In this document: one piece after another, positions 8,692 through 11,584 of the stretch
Numbering within the stretch: the stretch's first letter is position 1
How the letters are laid out: every line of letters begins with the position of its first letter
Source: an uncultured Porphyromonadaceae bacterium
Lineage (GTDB): Bacteria > Bacteroidota > Bacteroidia > Bacteroidales > Muribaculaceae
Reading direction: 5' to 3'
Length of the DNA: 64,000 bases
NCBI GenBank assembly: GCA_947649495.1
Contig: CANSRU010000003.1
Span: 1 to 64,000, forward strand
Notes under the pieces: model-generated
Database searches by the model: none
The model's input: only the letters and a program-made list of their open reading frames with translations
Told to the model about the DNA's origin: nothing
Made by a program: the position numbers and the translations under genes

Positions 8692-8728
8692 AAGTTGTCG
8701 CTCTTATGGGCGACAACTTTATTTTTTG
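8692..8728 (+). terminator. Intrinsic terminator after rpsP
   Basis: AAGTTGTCGC / GCGACAACTT stem then TTATTTTTT. Confidence 0.8.
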
Positions 8729-8732
8729 AGAT

Positions 8733-11048
8733 ATGTGGAAAAAAAGTGCGATATATAGTCCGGTATGGTTCGCCGTTGTCGTATTGTTGGCATCGGTTTG
8801 TCAGTTGTGCGTTTTCTTGAAGTCGGTGGCTATGTTGACACATAGTTGGTACACCGTAATTACAGTGTCGCTGGCCGATATGCTTCTGCTATACATTCCA
8901 TATTGGTTTGTGTCGCCACGATTCCGTAAATATATACTGCTGCCATTCTGGGGGTTTACGGTATGGTATATAATCAATCTGTTGTATCTGCGTGCTTACC
9001 ATGATTTGCTGCCGGTATCGTCACTGATGCTGTTTGGCAACGTGGATTCTGTCACAATACGGTCTTCGTTAGCATTGTTGAGTGCGATTGATATTTTTAT
9101 TATTGTACCACCGCTTGTCACCACGTTGTTGTATTTCATATATTTCAGAAATAAACTCACATCATTTAGATTCAGTACCCCGGTAAGAGTAGCGGCCATT
9201 GCCTTAACGCTATTTGTGTTTGTGGGACAGCAGCTGTTTTTTTGCCGGCAATTCCATGTGGCCTATGGTGAGCCATATCTGTCTTATTATAAACCGAGGC
9301 CTGATGTCAGCAGGCAGTCTACCCTTAGGGAATATGGATTGTTGCGCTATATTTTTATTGAATCGTTGAAAGCGTTTCATTCAAAACGGGATTTAAGAGC
9401 CGATGAGTTGGCTTTGGTGAGGTCTTACATATGCGGAAAGATCATGCCGCCGGTATCAATCCCTGATTCCGTGGATAATTCGGAAAAGAATCTGATATTG
9501 ATAATAGTCGAATCCCTTAATTCTGCTGTGGTTGGATATTGCGTAGATGGCAGGCCTATTACCCCGGTGCTTAATGAAATTTGCCGCTCGTGTAATTCGG
9601 TGGTGGCTCTGGATATGGTGTCGCAGGTGGGCTGTGGCAGGTCGTCTGATGGTCAGCTGATGTATAATACCGGATTGCTTCCTATGCGTGATGAAGTCAC
9701 GGCATTGCGTTATGCTGATAATGAGTATCCATCGTTGGCCGACGCATTGAATAAGTCTGTGTCTGTGGAGGTGATAGGGGAAAATGCCGGGATGTGGAAT
9801 CACCGGGCCACAAATCTGGCTTTTGGTTACGATGCTTTGGTTGATGGATGTGCGGGCGATGTCAGGGACTCCTATGATGGTGAGATATTTCAACGTGCTT
9901 TATCGTTGATGAAAGAATTACCCCAACCTTTCTTCGCACAAATAACAACTCTTGGCATGCACGATCCTTACGATGGACCGGATGGTTATCTTCATGCAGT
10001 GTCGCGGTTTGATGAAAGTTTAGGGGAGTTCCTTACGGCATTGAAGTCCGCCGGTCTGTACGATAATTCGGTTATAGCCATTGTGTCCGACCATAATGGA
10101 GACATCTCTTTGCCTGGATCGGTAAGACGTGATGATGCCATAATGCTGGCGATACTTAACTCCGGTATTGATGCTAAGATAGAATGTGAGGTGGCGCAGA
10201 TAGATGTGTATCCTACAATTCTTGATGTAATGGGTGTGTCGGGTATATATCATTGGCCTGGCATGGGCAGAAGTCTATTGCGTGATTATGGCAGTGAGGA
10301 GCGCGATATGTCGCATCTATGGAATATTTCTGAAAATATTATAGCGTCTGATTATTTTCGTCGTTATGCCGAGGGGGAGATGATAGCCCATGGGGGAGGC
10401 TCTATTGATGGCAAGGTTGTGACAAATTCTTTGGAAGCCGTGCAGAAATCCATAGCCGATGGATTCCGGTATATTGAGCTTGATTTGTGCCTCACATCCG
10501 ATAGTATGGTGGCGGCGACCCACGATTGGCATACGTTTCACGAAATGACCGACTCGGTTGAATTTGATTATGTTCCTACCCTCCGTGAGTTTTCGGAGTC
10601 AAAGTTGTATGGCAAATACACTCCGCTTACATCTATTCTGATAGATTCGCTGTGGAAGGCTAATCCATCATTGGTATTGGTTACGGATAAATTGGACGAT
10701 GCTTCTGTGCTTTCGGCTGCATTTCCTGATTTGCGTAGGCGCATTATAGTGGAATGTTTTACCGAAAAGGCTGCCGATGAGTTGGCTGCGGCCGGATTCA
10801 AGACTATGTATAATTATCACAGGTTGAGAAATGGGATTAAATTGAAGGCGAAATCCATTCTTGGTTTTGGAGTTGACCCATACTTGGTGACTTGTCCGGT
10901 GGTCCGTTATGAGGCTGCTGAATATAAGCGGGAAGAAAAATGGCTTGGAAAACGCTCGGCGGTTTTCTCAGTTGCCGATACCGCCGGTGCTGCTCGTTTT
11001 ATCTCGGAAAATCCCATCGTGAGGTTTGTCTATACAGATAATCTTTAG
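8733..11048 (+). CDS. LtaS-like (alkaline phosphatase/sulfatase superfamily) membrane phosphoglycerol transferase fused to a C-terminal GDPD-like domain
   Basis: N-terminal TM helices; ILIIVESLNS..ITPVLNEI, QVGCGRSSDGQLM, TTLGMHDPY and VSDHNGD match LtaS-type motifs; then AHGGGSIDGKVVTNSLEAVQKSIADGFRYIELDLCLTSDSMVAATHDW matches a GDPD-type catalytic barrel. Confidence 0.8.
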   Translation: MWKKSAIYSPVWFAVVVLLASVCQLCVFLKSVAMLTHSWYTVITVSLADMLLLYIPYWFVSPRFRKYILLPFWGFTVWYIINLLYLRAYHDLLPVSSLMLFGNVDSVTIRSSLALLSAIDIFIIVPPLVTTLLYFIYFRNKLTSFRFSTPVRVAAIALTLFVFVGQQLFFCRQFHVAYGEPYLSYYKPRPDVSRQSTLREYGLLRYIFIESLKAFHSKRDLRADELALVRSYICGKIMPPVSIPDSVDNSEKNLILIIVESLNSAVVGYCVDGRPITPVLNEICRSCNSVVALDMVSQVGCGRSSDGQLMYNTGLLPMRDEVTALRYADNEYPSLADALNKSVSVEVIGENAGMWNHRATNLAFGYDALVDGCAGDVRDSYDGEIFQRALSLMKELPQPFFAQITTLGMHDPYDGPDGYLHAVSRFDESLGEFLTALKSAGLYDNSVIAIVSDHNGDISLPGSVRRDDAIMLAILNSGIDAKIECEVAQIDVYPTILDVMGVSGIYHWPGMGRSLLRDYGSEERDMSHLWNISENIIASDYFRRYAEGEMIAHGGGSIDGKVVTNSLEAVQKSIADGFRYIELDLCLTSDSMVAATHDWHTFHEMTDSVEFDYVPTLREFSESKLYGKYTPLTSILIDSLWKANPSLVLVTDKLDDASVLSAAFPDLRRRIIVECFTEKAADELAAAGFKTMYNYHRLRNGIKLKAKSILGFGVDPYLVTCPVVRYEAAEYKREEKWLGKRSAVFSVADTAGAARFISENPIVRFVYTDNL

Positions 11049-11584
11049 CGTTTTATTATGGTGAATCCGTAGAGCCCTTTGCGCGTTGTTGTGGTTTTGC
11101 GGTTCCCGGTTTTTGTTCTCCGATACTCGGAAAAGTTTACTTCCATCTCCTTTTCCCGGCCATCGGGTAGTGTCAGTGTCAGATGGTAGGAATAGCGTAC
11201 GCCATCGTTGATATAGCGGTTGCGCCCCACACGTCTGCGCTTTTGATGCTCCTTGCGATATTTATCCGTAACGGTGGTTTCTACTTTTGTTTCTGAAGCC
11301 TGATTGGCAAAAAAGTAGTTTGTGGTAAGAAAAATAGTCGAGGCTATTATGCAGGTTACGGTCAAATGCACTATGGCAGATAGCAAGGTGCTGTTGTTTC
11401 CGGTCAACTTTGCCCATCGAAACAGCAATGCCGGTGATGTCGCTGCTGAAAAGGCTAAACCGATAACCAATACAATCCACCAGGCTATCAATGTGCGATG
11501 GTAAATAACAAGCCCGATTCCTGCTGTGAAAATGCAGATAACCAGCAGGGTTATTAGAATCAATTTCCGATGTAGGGGACGCAT
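11045..11584 (-). CDS. Hypothetical membrane protein
   Basis: 179 aa; several hydrophobic helices and a basic C-terminal soluble domain; convergent with the upstream gene. Confidence 0.65.
   Translation of the reverse strand: MRPLHRKLILITLLVICIFTAGIGLVIYHRTLIAWWIVLVIGLAFSAATSPALLFRWAKLTGNNSTLLSAIVHLTVTCIIASTIFLTTNYFFANQASETKVETTVTDKYRKEHQKRRRVGRNRYINDGVRYSYHLTLTLPDGREKEMEVNFSEYRRTKTGNRKTTTTRKGLYGFTIIKR

Follow-up and report, generated by a model that had tools for sequence, protein, structure and literature searches.

In Bacteroidales that apparently make PE and PI and have no PG synthase, which headgroup is moved by an LtaS-like enzyme? The question is raised by a single gene in the window (the whole stretch of 64,000 nucleotides that was analyzed), which encodes a 771-aa protein with a five-TM LtaS-like transferase followed by a C-terminal GDPD-like phosphodiesterase. 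The gene is located between rpsP and glnS, and the features of the locus are as follows:

8692..8719, + strand: terminator-like hairpin after rpsP, with a 12-bp stem and a T tail; its end lies 13 nt ahead of the fused gene's start codon
8733..11048, + strand: fused gene (771 aa), five-TM LtaS-like transferase plus C-terminal GDPD-like phosphodiesterase
8733..9449, + strand: N-terminal membrane region and linker, with five TM helices predicted from hydropathy
9486..10238, + strand: LtaS-like sulfatase-fold domain, aa 252-502 (Pfam, alignment and structure match)
10338..10382, + strand: fusion point, IASDYFRRYAEGEMI and then AHGGG, where the end of the LtaS module is joined directly to the GDPD
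10380..11045, + strand: GDPD-like TIM barrel, aa about 550-771 (Pfam, AlphaFold2 and Foldseek)
11045..11584, - strand: 179-aa membrane protein that weakly matches DUF2500; its gene is convergent with the fused gene and overlaps the last bases of the latter

Architecture and integrity of the fused gene

The ORF begins with ATG and contains no internal stops. Pfam matches to Sulfatase (PF00884, aa 252-502, E = 2 × 10−15, above the cut-off) and to GDPD (PF03009, aa 563-610, 31.4-34.1 bits versus a gathering cut-off of 23.6) fall on this one uninterrupted chain, as had been proposed in a preliminary description of the locus; every motif quoted there was found in the 771-aa ORF, and the profile search agreed with its reading of the C-terminal half as GDPD-like. 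Hydropathy analysis placed TM helices at aa about 4-36, 42-60, 68-86, 106-127 and 147-165, the same pattern as in the LtaS-like protein of a congener (L059:7167-8837). The stretch that separates the sulfatase fold from the GDPD domain holds no convincing TM segment; a single weak peak (aa 253-272) corresponds to the sulfatase fold's first strand. Given five N-terminal helices and no convincing helix between the domains, both the LtaS-like and the GDPD domain should lie on the periplasmic side, in agreement, for the LtaS-like domain, with the extracytoplasmic placement proposed earlier.

A frameshift or an assembly join of two genes was ruled out. In the congener G002, the same two modules are encoded by neighboring genes in the same direction: a 557-aa LtaS-like protein that ends ...ISDLIVRGGYFR, and a 256-aa GDPD that has its own TM anchor and begins MKRITIIVILIGILCLVVYDRI...IAHAGG. 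In the fused protein, ...ISENIIASDYFR leads directly into ...YAEGEMIAHGGG, without the membrane anchor seen in stand-alone GDPDs. This anchor is absent rather than shifted, which a sequencing slip would not produce and which argues for a true fusion onto an already membrane-bound protein. Codon-position base composition is typical for host genes and does not shift at the junction.

Seven congeners have glnS no more than a few hundred bases after rpsP, and the fused gene and the gene of the 179-aa membrane protein thus make up a segment of about 2.9 kb that is missing there. The congeners also show the glnS upstream stretch and terminator-like hairpins after rpsP comparable to that at 8692..8719; in the scan as a whole, terminator-like sites were not in excess over shuffles. 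In one congener (G011, L075:10760-11779), an LtaS-like gene without a GDPD lies 15 bp upstream of an Acyl_transf_3 gene.

Active-site residues and the likely lipid donor

LtaS is the nearest of the solved structures to the N-terminal half by sequence. It is also the best NCBIfam match of this part (NF053595), at 119.7 bits against an equivalog cut-off of 970, while representatives of OpgB and CptA score 47.8 and 20.8 bits and neither is the nearest family. The AlphaFold2 model of the full-length protein is poor (pLDDT 61.5), although its sulfatase region still best matches LtaS from Listeria, Bacillus and Staphylococcus (4uor, 2w8d and 2w5q); the model of the C-terminal domain is good (pLDDT 85, pTM 0.83) and has a GDPD fold, with Foldseek matches to GDPD structures up to TM 0.72 (2pz0) and to 8ghh at TM 0.70.

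Like LtaS, the fused protein combines a five-TM part with an extracellular sulfatase fold, and it keeps the Mn-site residues E260, D453 and H454 as well as H410. Together with S304, the candidate nucleophile, these candidate metal and catalytic residues match LtaS positions and are kept across the LtaS-like partners described below. Ser304 aligns with the LtaS nucleophile Thr300, a replacement already read from the motifs in the preliminary description; Thr and Ser nucleophiles are both found in this superfamily, and the change is mild. Residues D349, W354, R356 and H416 of S. aureus LtaS, which we take to be the glycerol-phosphate pocket, correspond to E350, W355, H357 and H410 when mapped through the alignment, so that two of the four are kept, D349 and R356 are replaced, and E350, W355 and H357 occupy positions of the LtaS headgroup site.

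The host, whose genome is 99.98% complete, encodes three CDP-alcohol transferases: one is PssA, which scores above its cut-off; another is a BT1523-like PIP synthase, which reaches 272 of 350 bits; and the gene of the third lies near the cluster that contains this synthase. All three fall short of the PgsA cut-off (TIGR00560), and no PgsA above this cut-off was found in any of 61 genomes (the host and 60 Bacteroidales relatives) or in those Bacteroidota genomes carrying OpgB-type fusions that were tested. PgsA of Sulfurospirillum and Vibrio does pass; the cut-off may be too strict for this phylum, and the result is an argument rather than proof. PG synthesis in Bacteroidales is therefore in doubt, or proceeds through a divergent enzyme. 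The host also has a complete BT1522-1526-like inositol-lipid set (L240:4852-11597, G000:C2), with PgpA, GtrA, PIP synthase, PAP2 and MIPS homologues. In B. thetaiotaomicron, the BT1522-1526 cluster makes PI and inositol phosphoceramide (PMC8791184, PMC9246714), and PE and PI are the glycerophospholipids reported (PMC8791184). With PssA and a full inositol-lipid cluster encoded and no recognizable PgsA, PE or PI rather than PG is the likely donor in the host. A HAD hydrolase and a nucleotidyltransferase are also encoded near the cluster, as is the third CDP-alcohol transferase.

The GDPD domain shares with GDPD/GlpQ enzymes (PF03009; 2pz0, 5t91) the TIM barrel and several active-site residues. 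The canonical motif reads HR...EN...E-x-D...HD plus E-x-K, with residues His17, Arg18, Glu44, Asp46, His59, Glu111 and Lys113 (PMC4926365). Candidate catalytic and metal residues in the fused protein are H553 (of HGG), E582, D584, H597, D652, K653 and E674. In 30 sequences of its subfamily, H553, E582, D584, H597 and D652 are invariant, K653 is present in 29 and E674 in 28, and the Arg of HRG is Ala or Gly in all 30; the HRG-to-HGG change pointed out earlier thus falls within a subfamily pattern of H-A/G-G in place of HRG. Both His, E-x-D and Lys are kept, whereas EN has become TN and E-x-K, which holds the third canonical metal ligand, reads T-D-K. D652 and E674 may replace the lost ligand, and the HGG/T-D-K site could be a sign of different specificity. 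The subfamily further differs from GlpQ in being a membrane-anchored periplasmic partner of transferases.

Recurrent pairing of the GDPD subfamily with transferases

The LtaS-like and GDPD domains both come from known superfamilies, and no description of their combination was found in the open-access literature searched. The GDPD alignment was scanned against 85,462 species genomes and gave 80 loci. Many of these code for long fusion proteins that combine N-terminal TM helices with a sulfatase fold and an H-A/G-G GDPD; they come from marine Bacteroidota, Pelagibacteraceae, Campylobacterota and other Proteobacteria (counts over whole genomes are based on family searches; alignments A3 and A4, which mixed full-length and single-domain proteins, were misaligned and were left out). 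A sulfatase-fold partner accompanied the subfamily in 35 of 88 loci (23 fused, 12 within 400 bp), versus 0 of 29 loci of canonical GDPDs of the host family, searched within about 1.5 kb (Fisher P = 9 × 10−6; with the 12 adjacent cases alone, P = 0.016; inside the host family, 4/18 versus 0/29, P = 0.017), although these P values are optimistic, since the loci are related and are not phylogenetically independent samples. The other 53 GDPD domains had no transferase next door. Distribution is patchy, with the subfamily present in 23 of 397 genomes of the host family and 7 of 393 of the order, which suggests horizontal movement or repeated loss.

NCBIfam assigned the partners to three families: OpgB-like (for example L093, 211.7 bits), LtaS-like (L105, adjacent, 131.8 bits) and CptA-like (L131, fused, 190.9 bits; L056 and L060, adjacent, about 240 bits), where all of these scores are under the curated cut-offs and the families are accordingly labeled “-like”. 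The fused domains comprised 19 OpgB-like, 1 LtaS-like, 1 CptA-like and 2 other, and the adjacent ones 5 OpgB-like, 2 LtaS-like, 1 CptA-like and 4 other, with weak calls (L119, L126, L133, L135, L143 and L159; best scores <80 bits) counted as other sulfatase-fold proteins. CptA-like proteins lie next to a subfamily GDPD at L056/L076 and L060, and the CptA-like fusion, from a Prevotellaceae MAG, is an 826-aa protein in which a phosphoethanolamine transferase is joined to a GDPD of this subfamily (L131:6228-8705). The LtaS-GDPD fusion proper was seen in one genome only. The search for the domain pair across genomes, a check proposed in the preliminary description, thus showed recurrent pairing of the GDPD subfamily but no specificity for LtaS, as OpgB-like and phosphoethanolamine-transferase-like partners occur too.

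OpgB/MdoB phosphoglycerol transferase I (NF003000, NF009027) is likewise a Gram-negative membrane headgroup transferase, and marine bacteria have relatives of it joined to GDPDs of this subfamily, but the transferase of the 771-aa fusion is LtaS-like. CptA/EptA phosphoethanolamine transferases (NF012179, NF028537) share the fold, and CptA-like members are fused or adjacent to the GDPD subfamily, yet they form another transferase family to which the 771-aa protein shows only weak similarity.

The GDPD domain has been paired with transferases repeatedly and independently. In the GDPD tree, OpgB-type fusions fall in a 34-row set (SH-aLRT 98) that includes some stand-alone members, and the GDPD of the 771-aa fusion lies among Bacteroidales sequences that stand alone or have a CptA- or LtaS-like gene next to them. 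AU tests rejected all fused sequences as one clade (p-AU = 5 × 10−4), and with it a single ancestral fusion for all, and likewise rejected one GDPD clade of the 771-aa and OpgB fusions (p-AU = 4 × 10−5). Grouping the 771-aa fusion with the CptA fusion L131 (P = 0.14) or with LtaS-linked L084 and L105 (P = 0.12) was not rejected. Rejection of one clade for the fusions supports at least two independent origins, and three origins by partner family are likely, because the CptA-like and LtaS-like halves belong to different families.

Possible roles of the two domains

We put at about even the probability that the fused protein works in the inner membrane as a bifunctional enzyme, editing phosphodiester groups of lipid origin on a molecule of the envelope. 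As the fold and the conserved metal and nucleophile residues suggest, the LtaS-like domain would use Ser304 to remove the phospho-headgroup of a membrane lipid, in this host probably PE or PI and not PG, and the headgroup would then be passed to a periplasmic acceptor, either glycan or lipid. The GDPD domain on the same chain would hydrolyze such phosphodiesters, so that the modification is limited, trimmed or reversed. The make-and-trim role suggested in the preliminary description is in this sense plausible: the linkage of the domains is observed directly, and the chemistry, that is, lipid donor, acceptor and direction of the second step, is what we infer. Simple trimming would need a changed specificity, since the canonical GDPD GlpQ is stereospecific and cannot cut intact sn-glycerol-1-phosphate (Gro1P) polymers of the LtaS type (PMC7086022), which makes plain GlpQ-like activity unfit for an LtaS product; loss of the HRG Arg could be a route to such a change. 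It is also not obvious that a single class of substrate could serve the three partner families, because GDPD chemistry uses a neighboring hydroxyl and a phosphoethanolamine group has none.

The GDPD domain might instead act on the donor side: its substrates would be phospholipids, lysolipids or deacylated glycerophosphodiesters, whose cleavage would supply or recycle headgroups, and the modified acceptor would stay untouched. We consider this explanation credible but unlikely. It would suit any transferase partner, PE- or PG-type, but transferases of the LtaS/EptA superfamily leave DAG and not a lysolipid or glycerophosphodiester, and there is no obvious shared intermediate. Lysophospholipase D-type GDPDs do act in this way, and the S. 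aureus LPG phospholipase D has a GDPD fold (8ghh, the TM 0.70 match above; PMC10404611). It is doubtful that the domain serves as a second transferase or cyclase, using cyclic-phosphate chemistry either to pass the group on to a different acceptor or to make a cyclic phosphate of it: catalysis in the GDPD superfamily does go via a cyclic intermediate (PMC6299612), and the HRG Arg and the third metal ligand are changed in the subfamily, but D652 and E674 may stand in for that ligand. The original reading of a PG-using phosphoglycerol transferase coupled to a canonical glycerophosphodiesterase that trims phosphoglycerol was not upheld and appears improbable. While LtaS provides the best structural and NCBIfam matches and OpgB-type partners dominate the fused set, no PgsA above the cut-off was found in the host or in the 61 Bacteroidales genomes searched, D349 and R356 of LtaS are replaced, GlpQ-type GDPDs leave intact Gro1P chains uncut, and the pairing extends to CptA partners, which transfer phosphoethanolamine. 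Co-location alone, with two unrelated envelope activities carried on a horizontally moved surface-variation cassette, would fit the patchy distribution and the segment missing between rpsP and glnS in seven congeners but is very improbable, as it is difficult to see why fusions to different families of transferase would have arisen repeatedly and independently unless the activities share a pathway.

Returning to the editing enzyme, the same cutting module beside three kinds of attaching enzyme in distant bacteria suggests a widespread, unstudied “attach and trim” system. Writers of OPG phosphoglycerol, lipid A/core phosphoethanolamine and teichoic acids are important for resistance to antimicrobial peptides and for contact with the host. 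To our knowledge, dedicated removers of lipid-derived surface groups are little known in Gram-negatives, and the repeated pairing of a hydrolase with three families of writers suggests that reversal is regulated. More speculatively, and with a low probability in our estimate, the H(A/G)G GDPDs might be a dedicated eraser or editor class for envelope headgroups, recruited independently by the three transferase families, which in PG-lacking Bacteroidales would edit an undescribed PE- or PI-derived decoration, possibly phosphoinositol. GacH (5u9z, 6dgm), an LtaS-fold phosphoglycerol transferase among the structure matches, decorates a surface polysaccharide instead of making a polymer, but it is Gram-positive and without a GDPD domain.

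Among the fused proteins of the wider set, OpgB-like/GDPD fusions are present in Pelagibacteraceae (L093, 928 aa; L102, L124 and L154), which is unexpected for streamlined genomes. Weak matches to ILEI (interleukin-like EMT inducer; ILEI/FAM3-like) occur just before the GDPD domain in two marine Flavobacteriaceae loci, within the fused protein in L153 and in a stand-alone GDPD in L111.
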